From a virus, in the IMG/VR virus record IMGVR_UViG_3300036829_000047, positions 1 through 34,227 of that record: a DNA stretch of 34,227 nt; one strand, given 5' to 3'. This document shows, piece after piece, positions 4,791 to 32,216 of this stretch. The notes beneath the pieces were generated by a model that ran no database searches, was not told the origin of the DNA, and saw only the letters and a program-made list of their open reading frames with translations. The position numbers and the translations under genes are program-made. Each line of letters starts with the position of its first letter. Position 1 is the stretch's first letter.

Positions 4791-5609
4791 GTGCCCTGGT
4801 TTCGCATAGACGACGGCTTCCACAGCCACCCGAAGCGCCTGGCGGCATCGCTGGCAGCGGTGGGTCTGTGGACAGTAGCCGGCTCATGGTCGAGCGCCCA
4901 TCTCACCGATGGGGTCGTGCCAGACCGTGTGCTCCCGATGCTGTCCCCGGACGCGCCCGAGCTAGCGAAAGAGCTAGTCGAAGCAGGGCTCTGGAAGCGA
5001 CGGAAAGGCGGCTACCAGTTCCACGACTGGAGCGAGCGGAACCCGTCGAAAACCGCCGTAGAAGCCGAGCGGAAAAAGAACGCGGAACGACAGAGGAAGT
5101 GGAGGGAAAAACAGGAAGCCGCAGCTCAGGAGCAAGAACGTAACGCCGTTACTGACACTGCTACTAACGCCGCGACTAACGGTGTCAGTAACGGCGCCCC
5201 TACCCGACCCGACCCAAAAGATAAAGATAAAGAACAGACCCCCCCTCGCCCTTCGGGCTCGGTGCCCCCAAAGGGGGCAAAGCGAGCCACGCGGATCCCG
5301 GAGGACTTCACGGTCACTCTCGACATGATCGCGTGGGCACGGGATGAAGTCCCCGGTGTCGACGGCAAGCGCGAGACCGCCAAGTTCATCGACTACTGGA
5401 CCGCGGCATCCGGCGCCAACGCCCGCAAGCGTGACTGGAAAGCCGCCTGGCGCAACTGGATGCGCCAGGCCGACGAGCGCGGCGGCAGCCGCCCCAACGG
5501 CAGCCACCAGCCCGCCCGGCCGCAGAGACCAACCACCAACGACCGCGTCCAGCAGGCCATCGAAGCCGGGAAGCGCGTCGAAGCGATGCTGAACGGAGCA
5601 AGGCGATGA
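4791..5609 (+). CDS. Phage replication initiator-like protein
   Basis: A 272-residue protein from a GTG start. The N-terminal region (PWFRIDDGFHSHPKRLAA, then LWTVAGSWSSAHLTDGVVP) is the winged-helix-like front half seen in many actinophage replication proteins. A basic helix (AERQRKWREKQ, about 100-110), an Asn/Thr-rich linker and a C-terminal module ending FIDYWTAASGA, RKRDWKAAWRNWMRQ (about 198-226) follow. That last pattern is typical of phage DnaA/O-like or DnaD-like initiators. The linker DNA holds tandem 12-bp repeats and an AT-rich block (separate entry), as expected for an initiator whose gene contains its own origin. The next gene may be its helicase-loading partner. Confidence 0.72.
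   Translation: MPWFRIDDGFHSHPKRLAASLAAVGLWTVAGSWSSAHLTDGVVPDRVLPMLSPDAPELAKELVEAGLWKRRKGGYQFHDWSERNPSKTAVEAERKKNAERQRKWREKQEAAAQEQERNAVTDTATNAATNGVSNGAPTRPDPKDKDKEQTPPRPSGSVPPKGAKRATRIPEDFTVTLDMIAWARDEVPGVDGKRETAKFIDYWTAASGANARKRDWKAAWRNWMRQADERGGSRPNGSHQPARPQRPTTNDRVQQAIEAGKRVEAMLNGARR
5141..5237 (+). repeat. Iteron-like 12-bp tandem repeats plus AT-rich block, candidate replication origin
   Basis: Five contiguous 12-bp units begin at 5141, 5153, 5165, 5177 and 5189. Four start with TAACG (TAACGCCG, TAACGCCG, TAACGGTG, TAACGGCG); the second is degenerate (TGACACTG). The units encode tetrapeptides NAVT, DTAT, NAAT, NGVS and NGAP in the initiator linker. A 15-bp perfect inverted repeat (5144-5158 with 5182-5196) is embedded in the array. 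Immediately downstream, 5216-5237 is about three-quarters A/T in otherwise very GC-rich DNA. Iterons plus an AT-rich unwinding element inside the initiator gene is the lambda ori/O arrangement; its function here is inferred. Confidence 0.55.
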
Positions 5610-5959
5610 CAGGTGAGGAAGCCGGGAAGCTGCTCGGCATGTGCGCCTCCTACGACAACCGGATGACGGACGACGCCAGCACCTACGCCTGGTACCGGGC
5701 GCTCAGCGACCTGCCCTACGAAGCGTGCGAGAACGCCGTCGTCGCCCACTACAGCGAATCCCGCGACTGGATCATGCCGGCCGACGTCCGCACGCGGGTG
5801 CGGCGCGAGCTGAACCGGCAGACCGACCGCGAGCAGCTCCGGGAAATCCTCGACGTCGACGCCTACCGCAAGCGCATCGCCAGGACCGACGCCCAGCTGC
5901 TGCGCAAGATCCAGGAGCGCGCCGGACGCACGCTGCGGCTCAAGGGCATCGATGACTGA
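5606..5959 (+). CDS. Possible helicase-loader-type phage replication protein
   Basis: A 117-residue helical protein overlapping the initiator gene by ATGA. It opens MTGEEAGKLLGMCASYDNR and continues with AWYRALSDLPYEACENAVVAH, YSESRDWIMPADVR, a layout that recurs in phage proteins next to replication initiators. Some of these resemble the loader/inhibitor of the G40P helicase or the N-terminal part of DnaC-like proteins. There is no Walker motif, so it would be a non-ATPase loader or adaptor. The assignment rests on pattern and position. Confidence 0.55.
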   Translation: MTGEEAGKLLGMCASYDNRMTDDASTYAWYRALSDLPYEACENAVVAHYSESRDWIMPADVRTRVRRELNRQTDREQLREILDVDAYRKRIARTDAQLLRKIQERAGRTLRLKGIDD

Positions 5960-19666: not shown

Positions 19667-22315
19667 ATGACGTACGTTGCGGGCGCGGCAAGCGTCAGCA
19701 TTACCCCCGATTTCAGCAACTTCCATAAGAAGATCGGCGCTGATCTCGACAAGGAAGACGCGAGCTTCACCAAAGCGGGCGACCGCTGGGGGAAGCTGGC
19801 GGCAGACGGCTTCAAAGCGCGGTTCAAAGCCGCTGACATGCCGACGGCCAAGATCAAGGCCGATGCGGACACGGCCGAGGCAGACGCCAAACTCGACAAG
19901 GCGGCGCGCAACCGTACCGCGAAGATCAAGCTCGACGCGTCGTGGCTGACGTCGCCCGCCGCGCTGATCGGCGCCGGCGCGCTCACGCTCGGCCCGCAGG
20001 CGCTCGGCCTCGGCGCGGGTGCCGTCGGCGGCGGTGTCGCGCTCGGCGCCGCAGCCGCGGGCGTGGCCAGCTTCGCGGCCGTCGCGGTGCCGATGTTCAG
20101 CAAGATCACCAAAGCGCAGTCGGCGCTGACGACCGCTCAGCAGCAGTACGACAAGGCGACGACGGCGGCGGGCCGCGCATCGGCGCTCAAGGCCGAGGCT
20201 GCGGCAACGGCCGGGCTGACGTCGAGTGAGAAGTCCCTCGCTGTCCAGCTGACCGGCCTCACCGGCGCATGGCACAAGATGCAGGCGCAAGAGGAGCCGA
20301 TTGCCAGCGCCGCGCTGCTGGGATGGTTCCAGGCGGCGCGCACTGCGGTGGGCTACTTCCCGAAGGTCTTCGAGCCTGCCGCGTCGGCCATCGGCGACCT
20401 GGGCGACAAGGCGAAGTCCGCGCTGCAGGCGCCGTTCTGGGGCAAGTTCTTCACTACGCTCGGCAAGACGGGCAAGGGCGCCATTACCGGCTTCGGTGAT
20501 GCCCTGGGCCACGTCGGCGACGGGTTCGCGCACCTGTTCGTCACGTTCGCGCCCGACATCAACAAGCTGCCCGGCCTGATCGACAAGTGGGCCGCGTCAT
20601 TCGACAACTGGGCGACGCATTACAGCAGGTCCGGCTTCGACTCGTTCATGAAAAAGACGTTCAGCGCGGGCAACGTGGCCAGCCTCAAGGGCGATCTTCA
20701 GGCGCTCGGGACGACACTCGGCAACGTCGCCAAGGCAACGGCGAACCTGTCACCGGCCGCGTTCGGCGGCCTGAACAACCTGCTCACAGTCATGGCCAAG
20801 CTGTCGCCCGGCCAGATCGAGGCCATCGGCGTCCTGTTCGGTGTCGGGAAGACGGTCGGGGGAGCCGGTAACCTCGCGAAGCTGCTCAGCGGCCCAGGTT
20901 CCCTGGACACGGGCATTCTCGGCAGCATTCTCGGCGGCAAGGGCAAGGCCGGGAAAGCGGCTACTGCTGCCGGGGAAGCGGAAGGGGCCGCAGGCAAGTC
21001 GGGCCTGTCGAAGATCCTTGGCGGCGGCGCGGCAGACGGCATCGTGGGGCTGCTTCCGGCTGCTGCCACTGGCGGTCTGCTGTACGGGCTGAGCAAGATC
21101 AAGAACCCGGACAAGTCGTCGTGGCTGACGGAAGGCCCGGGCGGCAAGCAGGGCGGATGGAACAACTTCGGGCAGGCCGGCCGCAACATAGGCAACTGGA
21201 CCGCGGGTGCCCCGGCGAACTGGGCGACCACCGGGTTTTCCGGGGCATACACCCACTTCCAGCGCGATTTCGCCGGGAAGATCACGTCGTGGTTCACGCA
21301 GTCGCTGCCGCACGCGTTCAGCGCCGCGGGATCCTGGCTGACCGGCACCGGGAGCTCCATCGCCTCCGGCCTCGTCCGCGGGTGGAATGCCGCGTCCGGT
21401 GCCGTAACGAGCTCGTTCGGCTCGGTCCGCACGTGGGCGGGACGCGCCGTCTCCGGCTCCGTGAACTGGCTGCGCGGCGCCGGTAACGGCGTGGCGACCG
21501 GCCTGGTGCGCGGCTGGAATGGTGCGGGCCGCGCCGTCTCCGGCGCGTTCGGGCGCGCCAAGGGCTGGGCTGTCGGCGCGGTGTCGACGGCTGGCGGCTG
21601 GCTGCATTCCGCGGGAAACGCGGTCGGTACCGGCCTGGTGCGCGGCTGGAATGGTGCGGGCAACGCGACATCGGGCGCGTTCCGGCGCGCGCGGTCGTGG
21701 GCGACGTCGGCAGTGTCGACGGCTGGCGGCTGGCTGCGCCCGGCGGGCAACGTGGCGGCCTCCGGGCTCGTCCGCGGGTGGGGTGCGGCGTCCGGTGCCA
21801 TCTCCGGCGCGTTCGGCCGCGCGTCGTCGTGGGCCGCGGGCGCGTTCCGCGGCGCGGGCGGCTGGCTCGTCGGCGCGGGCGAGTCGATCATGAACGGCCT
21901 TGCCGCCGGGCTGAACTGGGGCATCGGCAAGGTACAGAGCATCCTCAACTGGGTTACCGCGCACATCCCGTCGTGGAAGGGCCCTCCGGCCTATGACGCC
22001 GTGATGCTGAAGCCGGCCGGTCAGCTCATCATGGGCGGCCTGCAGAACTCGCTGGCCGCAGGCATTCCCGGCGTCCGAGGGACGATGCAGGACGCGACCG
22101 CGGCTATCGCGGCCGGTCTGCGCGTGCCGGCGCTGTCCGGTTCGGCGCTGTCCGGTTCGGCACTGCGCGGCGGCGACGGCCTGGCGCTCGTCGTCAGTGC
22201 CGGAAGCAACGACGCGCTGCTGAAGGCGATCGTGACCAGTCTCCGCTACGACATCCAGGCAGGCAGCGGCGGCGACGTGCAGAAGCACCTCGGCCGCGGA
22301 AAGGCGCGCACATGA
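19667..22315 (+). CDS. Tape measure protein
   Basis: An 882-residue protein with a good RBS (AGGGAGGG). It determines tail length and is threaded in the tube. It has a charged N-terminal helical part with Lys/Asp repeats, a long hydrophobic Gly/Ala stretch (about residues 100-145), and several helical segments. A five-fold 44-residue repeat covers about residues 555-765. It ends in a conserved-looking MQDATAAIAAGL region. Using the usual 1.5 angstrom per residue rule, the tail would be about 130 nm. No lysozyme or peptidase motif was seen. Confidence 0.88.
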   Translation: MTYVAGAASVSITPDFSNFHKKIGADLDKEDASFTKAGDRWGKLAADGFKARFKAADMPTAKIKADADTAEADAKLDKAARNRTAKIKLDASWLTSPAALIGAGALTLGPQALGLGAGAVGGGVALGAAAAGVASFAAVAVPMFSKITKAQSALTTAQQQYDKATTAAGRASALKAEAAATAGLTSSEKSLAVQLTGLTGAWHKMQAQEEPIASAALLGWFQAARTAVGYFPKVFEPAASAIGDLGDKAKSALQAPFWGKFFTTLGKTGKGAITGFGDALGHVGDGFAHLFVTFAPDINKLPGLIDKWAASFDNWATHYSRSGFDSFMKKTFSAGNVASLKGDLQALGTTLGNVAKATANLSPAAFGGLNNLLTVMAKLSPGQIEAIGVLFGVGKTVGGAGNLAKLLSGPGSLDTGILGSILGGKGKAGKAATAAGEAEGAAGKSGLSKILGGGAADGIVGLLPAAATGGLLYGLSKIKNPDKSSWLTEGPGGKQGGWNNFGQAGRNIGNWTAGAPANWATTGFSGAYTHFQRDFAGKITSWFTQSLPHAFSAAGSWLTGTGSSIASGLVRGWNAASGAVTSSFGSVRTWAGRAVSGSVNWLRGAGNGVATGLVRGWNGAGRAVSGAFGRAKGWAVGAVSTAGGWLHSAGNAVGTGLVRGWNGAGNATSGAFRRARSWATSAVSTAGGWLRPAGNVAASGLVRGWGAASGAISGAFGRASSWAAGAFRGAGGWLVGAGESIMNGLAAGLNWGIGKVQSILNWVTAHIPSWKGPPAYDAVMLKPAGQLIMGGLQNSLAAGIPGVRGTMQDATAAIAAGLRVPALSGSALSGSALRGGDGLALVVSAGSNDALLKAIVTSLRYDIQAGSGGDVQKHLGRGKART
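21329..21988 (+). repeat. 132-bp tandem repeat within the tape measure gene
   Basis: An anchor motif recurs at 21368, 21500, 21632, 21764 and 21896, always exactly 132 bases apart, encoding 44-residue units. The first four read G-L-V-R-G-W(N/G); the fifth is degenerate (GLAAGLNWG). The units share the pattern G-x-W-L...A-G-N...SGAF-R-A-x-x-W-A. Units two and three are nearly identical in DNA, as in recent duplication. Spacing that keeps the frame means the repeat number could vary with the tail length. Confidence 0.85.
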
Positions 22316-28962: not shown

Positions 28963-28979
28963 GCACTATCCAGATAGCC

Positions 28980-29016
28980 GAAAGCCCCCCGCGCCACATA
29001 AGCGCGGGGGGCTTTC
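28980..29016 (+). terminator. Strong bidirectional terminator between convergent operons
   Basis: A perfect 15-bp stem: GAAAGCCCCCCGCGC at 28980-28994 with GCGCGGGGGGCTTTC at 29002-29016, loop CACATAA. The CTTTC end gives a partial U-run on the plus strand and the mirror-image GAAAG gives it on the minus strand. It lies between the endolysin gene (plus) and the DUF2637-like gene (minus), so it would stop transcription from both the phage late operon and the conjugation operon. Confidence 0.88.
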
Positions 29017-29052
29017 GTCGTGCCCGCTACATGCCTATGATCTCGATGACGC

Positions 29053-29904
29053 TCATTCAGCCTCGGTGCCCTCGGACACGAGACCGGCGTACTCCTGCTT
29101 GCGGAGCTGCCCCCAGCGCTTGCTCATGCCGCATTCCTCGCCGAGGTCGGCACCGCTGATGTCGGGTCGCTCGTCGAGGATCTTCAGTGCCTCAGTCCGT
29201 GCGTCGACGTCGTTCGGTACCTTCCCGCCGGCGTTCTTGCGCCTCCCGGATGCGCCCTTCGTGCGCGCACCCTTCGCCCGCGCATGCGTCTCCAGTTTGC
29301 GCGCAAGATTCGCGGCGTTCGCTTCCGCGTCTGCGCGCACCCGTTCGGCTTCCGTGCGCGCATCGTTCGCCGCATCGAGTTCGGCGCGGAGGGCGCTCGC
29401 GCGGGCGTCGCGCGCCTGCTTCAGCGCCCCGATCTCGGACAGCAGCGACGCCTCCCGTCCGGCTCGCGCGGTCTCCTCGGCCGCGGCGTGACGGCTGACG
29501 TCGGCGGCGGTCGGGCCGTTGAGGATGAAGTGCACGGCGAGCAGCGCCGCGGCGTCCAGCAGCACGCCGAACAGCCATGCCATGTGCCCCGGCGTCGCGT
29601 GCAGCACCACGGCGCCGGTCGCCGCGGCCGACAGGTACATCGAGCCGCCCATGATCAGGTACGCGGCGGTGACGGCCCACCACCGGGCGCCCTCCCATTT
29701 GGAGACGAACTCCAGGATGCACATGGAGATCAGCAGCGGGACGACGCCCTCGAGGACCGCAAGCGGCACGGGCATCTGGCCGAAGCGGATGGAGTGGTAG
29801 ACCTGGAATGTCATCGTGGTCGCGGCCATGCTGATGGCGACGGTCCAGGCGCAGAACTTCGCGCGGGCGACCGCGCGGGCCTTCACGGCTTGATTCGCAT
29901 CCAT
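29053..29904 (-). CDS. DUF2637/Spd-like membrane protein of the conjugation module
   Basis: A 283-residue protein. The start at 29904 is chosen because an AGGAG lies about 10 bases upstream; ATGs at 29913 and 29955 are poorer. Four hydrophobic helices occupy residues 15-130 (CAWTVAISMAATTMTFQVYH, VPLAVLEGVVPLLISMCILE, WWAVTAAYLIMGGSMYLSAA, WLFGVLLDAAALLAVHFILN). A long Ala/Arg/Glu coiled coil (about 140-220) and a C-terminal domain follow. DUF2637-like proteins occur next to the transfer gene in AICEs and Streptomyces plasmids and are thought to aid intramycelial spread. Confidence 0.7.
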   Translation of the reverse strand: MDANQAVKARAVARAKFCAWTVAISMAATTMTFQVYHSIRFGQMPVPLAVLEGVVPLLISMCILEFVSKWEGARWWAVTAAYLIMGGSMYLSAAATGAVVLHATPGHMAWLFGVLLDAAALLAVHFILNGPTAADVSRHAAAEETARAGREASLLSEIGALKQARDARASALRAELDAANDARTEAERVRADAEANAANLARKLETHARAKGARTKGASGRRKNAGGKVPNDVDARTEALKILDERPDISGADLGEECGMSKRWGQLRKQEYAGLVSEGTEAE

Positions 29905-29981
29905 GGGTGTCATGCTCCTGTCCGGGCAGAGGTGCGGGGGGATTTTGTGACGCATGCCTGTTTTGTCCGAAGTGCGGCCGG

Positions 29982-30072
29982 GACTTGGCTCACTTGGCTT
30001 GGCTCACCTTCCCCGTTTTGCCTGCATAGCGCGGGCGAGCCAAGCTGGTGGGCCAAGCTGGTGAGCCAAGCT
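29982..30072 (-). repeat. 13-bp repeat cluster 3' of the translocase gene, candidate clt (TraB-recognition) locus
   Basis: Three contiguous 13-bp units fill 30034-30072, consensus GGYGRGCCAAGCT (30034-30046, 30047-30059, 30060-30072). Two further copies in the opposite orientation lie at 29982-29994 and 29996-30008 (CTTGGCTCAC core). Across the gap GCTTGGCTCACC and its complement give a perfect 12-bp inverted repeat. The array begins 12 bases from the stop of the TraB/FtsK-like gene, inside a 179-base gap in an otherwise closely packed operon. Streptomyces clt loci hold such 8-bp direct TRS repeats near traB; the sequence itself here is different. Confidence 0.55.
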
Positions 30073-30083
30073 CGCGGGCCGGG

Positions 30084-32216
30084 TCAGGCAGCATCGTCGG
30101 CGTCCTCGTCGAGAGTGTCGTCATCTGCCGCGAACTCGGCCAGGACGTAGCGGGCGGCGGTGGTGCTGCCGGTGACGGCGATGTGCTCCTGGTCCCGGAG
30201 GATGACGAGCCAGCGCTTGAGAGTGCTGCGCGGGATCTCGGTGTGCGCGATGAGATCGCTGAGCCGCGCCCCGTTCTCGCCGCGGCGCTGAAGGAGGCCC
30301 AGTATCGGCCCGGAGATGCGGGCGGGGACGGCAATGGCCCGGTTCGCGGCCGGGGAGTTGCCCTCAGCACCGTCGATCGCGTCGCGGGCGGCGATGAGGT
30401 CGGCGATCTGAACGGGCGGGTCGGTCGGCCCGGGCATGCCGGCGAGGCGCTCGGCGACGTCCTCGGCGAGTTCGGTGAGGCGGGCGATGGGCTCGCCCTG
30501 GCGCTGCACGGGCTGCACGGCCGCGGTCGCGCTGCCCGCTGCGGGGGCGTGTGTGTCATGGCGGCCCGCGTAGCCGGCCAGCGCTGCGGCGATAGCAGGC
30601 GGGATGGCCGCCGTGGGGCGGCCGCGCCGCTTGGCGAGGGCCATGACCTGATCGAAGTCGTGCAGGTCGCGGACCCGGCCGGCTTTCCAGGTGCCGTCCG
30701 GGCCGACGACGAGGGCGACGCCCTTCACGCCCTGCGCGTAGGTGGCCATGTCCGGCATGCCCAGCAGTTCCCAGTCGGATATGAGGTTGCCCAGCTCGTG
30801 GCCCTGGTTGAGGCGCAACGCGATCTTGTTCCCGGCGTTGGCGTGCAGGTCCTTGTTGCCGGTGTACTGCACCACGGCGCGCTGCCCGGCGTAGGCGAGG
30901 CCGACGCCAGCGGACCGGCCGCCCTTGAGAATGTCGCCGACGGGCTCCTTGGCCTTGTGCGCGATCGGGGAATTCGCGCCGAGCAGGGTGTCGCCCTCAT
31001 CCAGGATGATCAGGATGGCCGGGTCTTCGGGCGTGGGGACGTGGTTCCGCCCGCCGCTGCGGGCGGAACGCTGCCGGATGATCTCGGCGCCCCATTCCAC
31101 GATCTTCAGCGCCTTGTCGTATTCGGGGACGCCGTCGGGTGACAGGCCCGCGCGGGCGTCGAGGGCGTCGCCCCACAGGAACGGGATAGTGCCCTTGCGC
31201 AGGTCGATCGCCCAGACGAGGGTGTCCCTGCGGCCGGTGTAGTCCTCGATGATGTTGGAGTAGGTGGTGGTTTTCCCGCCGCCGGTCGCGGCGAGCATAC
31301 TGGTGTGCCAGGCGCCCTGGTCGTCGTAGACGTTCAGGGTAAGGTCCCCCCCGGTGTCAGGGTCGGCGCCGAGGACCAGGGGGCCGTCCATGATGGAGCG
31401 GCGCGCCGCCGCGTGCGCGGGGTTGAGCGCGGGGTGAGTGACGTCCCCGTCCCACGGATCGTTCATCTGCACGGTGATGATGACGTTCCCGGCGTGCCTC
31501 GTGTCGGTGACGACGCGGACGCGCTCGGCGGGCAGCGAGAGGACGGCGGCGATCTTCTCGTCCAGGTCGCCGTGCGCGAGTTTCGTCGCAGAGGAGCCGG
31601 TGCCGCGGATGTCGACGGTGAACTCCTGGCCGGTGCGGGTGTCCTTCTCGCGGACCAGGTGGCTGCCTTCCAGGCCCGCGGCGGCGGCGACGGTCTGCCA
31701 GCGGGCGCGCTTGGCTTTCAGGGCCCGGCGGTGCTTCATCACGTCTGACCAGGTGATGGCGGACCACCCCGCGGCTGCGGCGCCCGTGTAGCCGAGCAGT
31801 ACCGGAAGATCCGTGACCCCGGTCGCGGCGGCGGTGGCCAGCCACGCCGGCACCCCGGCCGCCAGTGAGGCGGCGGTCGCGGAGTACCAGCGGGAGCCGT
31901 GCGTCTTGTGCGTGCTGACCCATGCGGCTGCGGCAGCGGGCGGCCCGAACAAGCCGAGCATGAGCGGGTCCGCGTGGACGGCGTAGCCGATCGCCCCGGC
32001 CGGGTACAGCGCGGTCATAGCCGTGCCGAGGCCGCGTGTCTCCGGCTTCTCGGCGACCCAGCGGACGTAGCCGCCGACAGCGCGCCCTGCCGCGCGTGCC
32101 GCGCCGGAACTTCCCGTGCCCCCGGTGTCCCGGGCGTTCCGGGTGTTCCGGTCACGGGTGTACGGACCCCAGGCGACGGCCTGGGGGCCCTGCTCGCTGC
32201 GGCGGCCGAGGGTCAC
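30084..32216 (-). CDS. FtsK/SpoIIIE-type DNA translocase, TraB-like conjugation protein
   Basis: A 710-residue protein from a GTG with AGGAGG eight bases upstream. The N-terminus is basic, followed by hydrophobic helices at about 63-160 (TALYPAGAIGYAV, AATGVTDLPVLLGYTGAAAA). Walker A ATGGGKTTTYSNI is near 308-320, Walker B AILIILDEGDTLL near 398-410. The C-terminus (about 635-700: GPILGLLQRRGENGARLSDL, IPRSTLKRWLVILRDQEHI) is a winged helix, like the DNA-recognition gamma domain of FtsK and TraB. TraB-type proteins move double-stranded plasmid DNA between mycelial cells. AICE context and single-gene architecture favour transfer over chromosome segregation. The 13-bp repeats just downstream are a candidate target. 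Confidence 0.85.
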   Translation of the reverse strand: MTLGRRSEQGPQAVAWGPYTRDRNTRNARDTGGTGSSGAARAAGRAVGGYVRWVAEKPETRGLGTAMTALYPAGAIGYAVHADPLMLGLFGPPAAAAAWVSTHKTHGSRWYSATAASLAAGVPAWLATAAATGVTDLPVLLGYTGAAAAGWSAITWSDVMKHRRALKAKRARWQTVAAAAGLEGSHLVREKDTRTGQEFTVDIRGTGSSATKLAHGDLDEKIAAVLSLPAERVRVVTDTRHAGNVIITVQMNDPWDGDVTHPALNPAHAAARRSIMDGPLVLGADPDTGGDLTLNVYDDQGAWHTSMLAATGGGKTTTYSNIIEDYTGRRDTLVWAIDLRKGTIPFLWGDALDARAGLSPDGVPEYDKALKIVEWGAEIIRQRSARSGGRNHVPTPEDPAILIILDEGDTLLGANSPIAHKAKEPVGDILKGGRSAGVGLAYAGQRAVVQYTGNKDLHANAGNKIALRLNQGHELGNLISDWELLGMPDMATYAQGVKGVALVVGPDGTWKAGRVRDLHDFDQVMALAKRRGRPTAAIPPAIAAALAGYAGRHDTHAPAAGSATAAVQPVQRQGEPIARLTELAEDVAERLAGMPGPTDPPVQIADLIAARDAIDGAEGNSPAANRAIAVPARISGPILGLLQRRGENGARLSDLIAHTEIPRSTLKRWLVILRDQEHIAVTGSTTAARYVLAEFAADDDTLDEDADDAA

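Follow-up and report, generated by a model that had tools for sequence, protein, structure and literature searches.

Segment 5140-5279 of the window (by which we mean the whole 34,227-nucleotide stretch of viral DNA analysed here) is very probably the replication origin of this phage, an origin of the iteron type lying inside the initiator gene. A preliminary description had proposed an origin made of iterons and an A/T-rich element within this gene and selected at the DNA level, and this proposal is supported by synonymous null models, by relatives and by phages whose initiator consists of the N-terminal domain only. The same arrangement, its repeats varying between clades, recurs across a large family of phages that infect soil and dairy actinobacteria. 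The principle of an in-gene iteron origin is already known; in the open-access literature, we found no description of such arrays in the phrog_2447 initiator family.

Table 1. Features of the initiator gene and its surroundings, in window coordinates
Feature	Position	Strand	Remarks
Initiator gene	4791..5609	+	272 aa, GTG start; phrog_2447 replication initiation protein, E 1.7e-52
N-terminal winged-helix domain, aa 1-83	4791..5039	+	AlphaFold2 pLDDT about 95-98; DSSP helices and two strands
Iteron array	5140..5200	+	GTAACG 5140, CGTTAC 5147 (inverted), CTAACG 5164, CTAACG 5176, GTAACG 5188
12-bp units	5141-5152, 5153-5164, 5165-5176, 5177-5188, 5189-5200		Read from sequence
Inverted repeat, left arm CGCCGTTACTGACAC	5144..5158	+	15-bp perfect
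Inverted repeat, right arm GTGTCAGTAACGGCG	5182..5196	+	15-bp perfect
C-rich pentamer run CCCGACCCGACCC	5203..5215	+	Period-5 run of 9, p 0.025; overlooked in the preliminary description
A/T-rich block AAAAGATAAAGATAAAGAACAG	5216..5237	+	5 G+C of 22; lowest-GC 22-mer of the whole window
Small hairpin GCCC-TTC-GGGC	5248..5258	+	Read from sequence; alternative pairing possible
Hairpin TGCCCCC-AAA-GGGGGCA	5263..5279	+	Stem 7, p 0.003 versus synonymous recoding
Downstream gene, possible helicase loader	5606..5959	+	Overlaps the initiator stop; phrog_2289 helicase loader, E 0.0015

The phrog_2447 profile covers residues 1-259 of the initiator, approximately the whole protein, and homologues are present in 514 phage records, the hosts being mainly Mycobacterium, Gordonia, Pseudomonas, Arthrobacter and Streptomyces. 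In an AlphaFold2 model built on a 37-row alignment, the winged-helix domain is followed by a long helix (residues 87-125, from DSSP), a linker of low pLDDT at about residues 121-160 that is predicted to be disordered, and a helical C-terminal domain. The winged-helix domain, which we presume to be the DNA-binding domain, is the sole clearly conserved portion of the initiator alignment. Searching the sequences of the PDB with a profile of the N-domain gave no match, and a Foldseek search of the N-domain against the PDB reached a best E of 0.17; the VIA list of fold neighbours is headed by assorted winged-helix proteins, and no lambda O structure occurs in the Foldseek or VIA lists. These matches are at a generic winged-helix level and we claim no relative of solved structure. 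The initiator is preceded by RecE-like and RecT-like genes. The product of the downstream gene matches phrog_2289 weakly, its stronger matches being to families of unknown function; its position is that of the annotated helicase loaders in Phonegingi and Eastland, and in Phonegingi, BrayBeast, Eastland and prophiGD53-3 the gene 3' of the initiator has a helicase-loader or lambda P-like annotation.

The array coincides with the low-pLDDT linker and encodes the linker peptide NAVTDTATNAATNGVSNGA. Five 12-bp units with a TAACGSYG core had been described here: all five lie where they were placed, and the core is found in four, the second unit (TGACACTGCTAC) being without it. The first unit is a near-palindrome, GTAACGCCGTTAC (5140-5152), owing to an extra inverted half-site, CGTTA, at 5147-5151; a clear 13-bp dyad is formed by this first half-site pair only. 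The perfect inverted repeat of 15 bp reported earlier is present and may also be read as 20 nt at 90% identity. We compared these elements with a null in which the peptide is held fixed and codons are resampled from the phage's own usage. TAACG or CGTTA occurs five times in the array versus 1.1 expected under synonymous codons (p 5e-5; none of 20,000 shuffles reaches five), and these are 5 of the 13 such sites in the whole 34 kb. A 15-bp inverted repeat was reached in none of 2,000 synonymous shuffles (p 5e-4). Codon choice in the array is unusual too: T is the last base of 9 of its 20 codons, a share of only 7.9% in the rest of the phage's genes, and four are ACT, a codon that makes up 6% of threonine codons elsewhere in the phage. 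With the peptide fixed, the 12-bp periodicity is weak (p 0.11), so it is more apt to describe the array as half-sites of either orientation than to call it a perfect tandem repeat.

The 15 bases between the array and the A/T-rich block, a spacing that proved exact, consist of two bases followed by CCCGACCCGACCC. Runs of this type recur in relatives, where the coding strand is likewise the C-rich one. The A/T-rich block is the presumed unwinding element. Both hairpins proposed beyond it were found in place, and an outer stem (GGCTCG/CGAGCC) is able to enclose the larger one. DnaA boxes are not present beyond chance, and searches for a promoter, a terminator and an Rfam match gave none.

A DNA search of the phage collection with the window gene returned short pieces only, too little for base-by-base synonymous conservation, and we therefore relied on synonymous shuffles and divergent relatives. 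A scan of genome contigs gave six loci. Among 90 non-redundant relatives, 84 were testable for repeated 7-mers in the linker, direct or inverted, and 69 of these exceeded their synonymous shuffles (p<0.05); control segments in the same genes did so in 9/90, 12/90 and 7/73 cases. Overall, linkers contain 1655 pairs of repeated 7-mers versus 272 expected. When only inverted repeats 5' of the pentamers are considered, 336 are found versus 64 expected (117 genes). The motifs involved differ between clades and include GTNAC (the class of the window), CGAAC/GTTCG, GAAGC/GCTTC, CCGATCGG and GGGAC/GTCCC. A given motif is translated in all three reading frames: the counts by frame are 49/58/10 for GTNAC, 40/55/28 for CGAAC or GTTCG and 10/12/9 for the CGATCGG type, and, to give one example, the window reads GT AAC GCC GTT AC where relative L011 reads GTA ACG CCG TTA C. 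If the N-domain reads the motif, motif class would be predicted to track the N-domain tree; it does so with 27 changes, versus 41-54 when labels are shuffled.

This classification of motifs is incomplete, since 26 of the 90 genes have none of the five tested motifs above the null, some of them having a V-T/S-N peptide that already forces GTNAC. Nor is the layout universal among members: phage VWB (L202, 1003-1959) has a homologous initiator whose linker contains no evident array, so that its origin may sit elsewhere, and no array is evident in the group formed by L003, L005 and L019. The preliminary description suggested that the repeats were selected at the DNA level, and relatives that lack the linker peptide indeed retain the DNA repeat; by inspection of relatives, without a systematic count, we saw none that kept the peptide repeat and had lost the DNA repeat. 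Sequence comparison shows that selection in the linker is on the DNA and not on the peptide.

The elements 3' of the array follow a family pattern as well. Period-5 runs are significant (p<0.05) in 52 of 77 genes, and in 58 of 62 runs the coding-strand pentamer unit is CCCNN, whereas no run has GGGNN. A hairpin shortly after the pentamers is significant in 24/52 genes. In the 30 bp past the pentamers, A/T content lies above synonymous shuffles in 94 of 101 genes. The order of iterons, C-rich pentamers and A/T-rich block, the latter often with an inverted repeat, is thus characteristic of the family; the window shows it in ordinary form, its pentamer run being short.

Fifteen non-redundant phages have an initiator that goes no further than the N-domain (107-129 aa), with the array directly 3' of it. 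These arrays contain 326 repeat pairs versus 31 expected, with p<0.05 in 14 of the 15 phages, and a control stretch 250 bp further on contains 49 pairs versus 35 expected; C-rich repeats lie 3' of the array in 13/15. In L074, L083, L087, L126, L176 and L179, the stop codon is a TAA within the first GTAAC iteron: as read from these sequences, it is apparently the origin itself that terminates the initiator gene. A long open frame overlaps the array in some of these phages. Because such overlaps are expected by chance in high-GC DNA, the array is firmly non-coding for L042 and L176 only; a non-coding array is further supported by short frames in L087, L133 and L197 and by annotation in Anatole, a cultured phage of the dairy species Propionibacterium freudenreichii. 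Gene 45 of Anatole is an initiator of this N-domain-only type, and the 189 bp that separate it from gene 46, annotated as intergenic, contain GGTAAGCAAAC-type repeats, C-rich hexamers (CCCGTA)n and then CTTACGTAAG. Just 3' of the pentamers, L042, L083, L087, L090 and L179 have in common a AAGTACTT(A) palindrome; L074 has AAGTACATA and the window has no such element.

We also searched in the reverse direction, matching two array patterns against 2.9 million viral contigs. Seventeen of the 19 matched stretches are located at a phrog_2447-type initiator. The class A pattern, of 22 bases, matched 12 stretches, nine of them just 3' of an initiator N-domain and one inside its coding sequence (L234); at the remaining 2/12, no initiator was detected. 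All seven stretches matched by the class B pattern are at an initiator. Most class A matches are independent of the derivation of the pattern, and 6 of the 7 class B matches are already known members. In L234 (2591-2911), the GTAACGGCGTTA array lies within the N-domain coding sequence, not after it. At L224:7979-8000, a strong CGTTACTAACG array lies near the end of the fetched stretch, where no phrog_2447-type initiator was detected; perhaps another initiator type is involved. A loose pattern taken from the window's own inverted repeat matched 15 viral contigs, none with an initiator of the phrog_2447 type, and was set aside as chance.

What the sequences show is that these elements are present, go beyond what synonymous codon choice would yield, and are kept as DNA in any frame and even outside coding sequence. 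As to how they may work, the winged-helix N-domain, probably in the form of dimers placed on dyads, would bind the half-sites of GTNAC/TAACG type (5140-5193), and the assembled initiator complex would open the adjoining A/T-rich block (5216-5237). The C-rich pentamers may impart strand polarity to this opening, and the C-terminal domain, together with the downstream helicase-loader-like protein, would recruit the replicative helicase. From what is established for iteron origins, we infer that the protein binds, that it does so as a dimer, and that unwinding and loading of the helicase follow; the roles given to the pentamers and the hairpin are likewise inferred, and that the strand polarity of the pentamers serves single-strand loading or directionality is speculation. 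GC skew, suggested earlier as a check, lends no support to an origin at 5.2 kb, the cumulative minimum lying near 8 kb.

Several other explanations may be considered. The array may be an operator, through which the initiator binds its own gene and limits its expression, with the origin elsewhere. All DNA-level results point to a cis-acting protein site, not to replication as such, and in this they suit an operator; however, a site far 3' of the start codon, or past the stop in genes encoding only the N-domain, would be unusual for a repressor, and the neighbouring A/T-rich block and pentamers are origin-like and needless for an operator, so that we hold this explanation to be unlikely. It is also conceivable, although distinctly improbable, that the true origin is another repeat cluster and that 5140-5279 is accessory. 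A candidate at 29990-30075, made of five GAGCCAAGC-type repeats of which three are direct and two inverted, lies between two minus-strand genes, one FtsK/SpoIIIE-like (30084-32216) and one at 29053-29955. Counted per 120 bp, repeated 8-mers are more numerous in this cluster than in the initiator linker, but no initiator adjoins it, its FtsK-like neighbour suggests a role in DNA transfer or partition, and the relatives, clade after clade, put the array at the initiator. The cluster may serve a plasmid-like prophage as a site of transfer or partition, or as a second site of replication.

Alternatively, the repeats may act as RNA, a 17-bp stem and the hairpins controlling translation or stability of the initiator mRNA. 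The + strand does fold better than shuffles (RNA z -3.7, DNA z -5.3). Yet neither an Rfam match nor a terminator accompanies it, most relatives have short dyads of mixed orientation rather than a single long stem, and genes encoding only the N-domain retain the repeats past their stop codon: we give regulation by RNA very little credence. Neutral slippage in an unconstrained linker, leaving DNA and peptide tandem repeats devoid of function, would fit a linker predicted to be disordered and pentamer runs that appear slippage-prone. It is already disfavoured, as slippage would not make the inverted-only repeats counted above at some five times their expectation (336 versus 64), and we regard it as extremely improbable; the sharing of a motif by divergent phages and its presence in more than one frame, the strand bias of the pentamers and the location of reverse-search matches at the initiator all stand against it as well. 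An in-gene replication origin is therefore the explanation we retain.

A broader proposal, which we put forward as possible though somewhat doubtful, is that of a widespread phage origin design in which the DNA-binding domain and its own sites form a travelling cassette. The N-domain would be accompanied by iterons specific to the clade, by a C-rich pentamer track with strand polarity and by a hairpin, translated or not; in several phages, the TAA of an iteron ends the gene and would leave the origin untranslated. The pentamers would form an element in their own right, for loading or unwinding, with a role like that of DnaA-trios. Pairs of binding domain and site matched across clades would let specificity be read and could be a basis for designing compatible plasmid vectors for actinobacteria, and a comparison of clades would allow the role of the C-rich pentamers to be asked.

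Two further features of the window lie apart from this region. A 16-bp perfect hairpin at 28979-29017 (CCGAAAGCCCCCCGCG / CGCGGGGGGCTTTCG), the longest perfect inverted repeat of the window, is located between convergent genes and looks like a bidirectional terminator. A tandem repeat at 21466-21834, with a unit of about 132 bp in about 2-2.6 copies, lies in a long ORF (19667-22315) that is probably the tape measure gene.

Among known systems, phage lambda offers an obvious comparison. Within gene O, iterons that are inverted repeats are bound by dimers of lambda O, which open the A+T region next to them (PMC5043065, PMC7466680), the order in the lambda origin being iterons, then A/T-rich region (PMC5043065). 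As in lambda, the iterons of the window lie in the middle of the initiator gene, an A/T-rich region adjoins them and a possible replication gene, the counterpart of P in lambda, is located downstream. The preliminary description considered the origin to be built as in lambda and its relatives: the order from iterons to A/T-rich block and a likeness at the level of function hold, whereas no homology to lambda O is detectable. No Pfam family matches the window initiator, whose sequence shows no detectable match to the lambda O family, and that family is absent from the Pfam matches of 37 relatives. The iterons of lambda are four in number and consist of imperfect inverted repeats of 19 bp, whereas the window has short GTNAC/TAACG half-sites at a spacing of roughly 12 bp, and its A/T-rich block is shorter than the 40-bp region of lambda. 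Unlike in lambda, C-rich pentamers separate iterons from A/T block in the window family, repeats vary by clade and some relatives have the array outside the gene.

The initiators named RepA-like in the extrachromosomal mycobacterial prophages Miko, Rachaly and Jeeves (PMC7157519) may be likened to the window family by an annotation name that several homologues share. The Miko repA gene with 171 bp of upstream sequence suffices for replication in M. smegmatis, and an origin within repA or immediately 5' of it was suspected in that study (PMC7157519). A likeness to replisome organisers and DnaD-DnaT primosomal proteins is suggested by matches to Phage_rep_org_N (1/37) and DnaT (2/37) among the relatives, and by a DnaD N-domain among the fold neighbours; however, these Pfam matches are all weak and the window protein has neither.

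The RepA_N initiators of Firmicutes plasmids provide the other close parallel. In pSK41 Rep, a winged-helix N-domain binds boxes in its own gene and the linker is dispensable (PMC5703833). The two systems have in common an N-domain of winged-helix type, predicted in the window initiator, boxes central in the initiator gene, a linker encoded by the origin and a separate C-terminal domain: the origin-like repeats of the window are encoded in the initiator linker as are the RepA_N boxes of pSK41, array and linker coinciding. RepA_N structures (4pql, 4pt7, 5kbj and 4pta) rank with the better neighbours of the N-domain by fold, with Z 6.5-6.9, and score no better than unrelated winged-helix proteins; for 4pt7, Z is 6.7 and rmsd 2.7 over 75 residues, values that unrelated winged helices equal. 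Unlike RepA_N, whose Pfam domain is absent from the window initiator and the 37 relatives, the window system belongs to a phage, not a plasmid, and contains pentamers and a hairpin. On the best reading of these sequences, it would be analogous to both lambda O and pSK41 RepA_N and a recognised member of neither.
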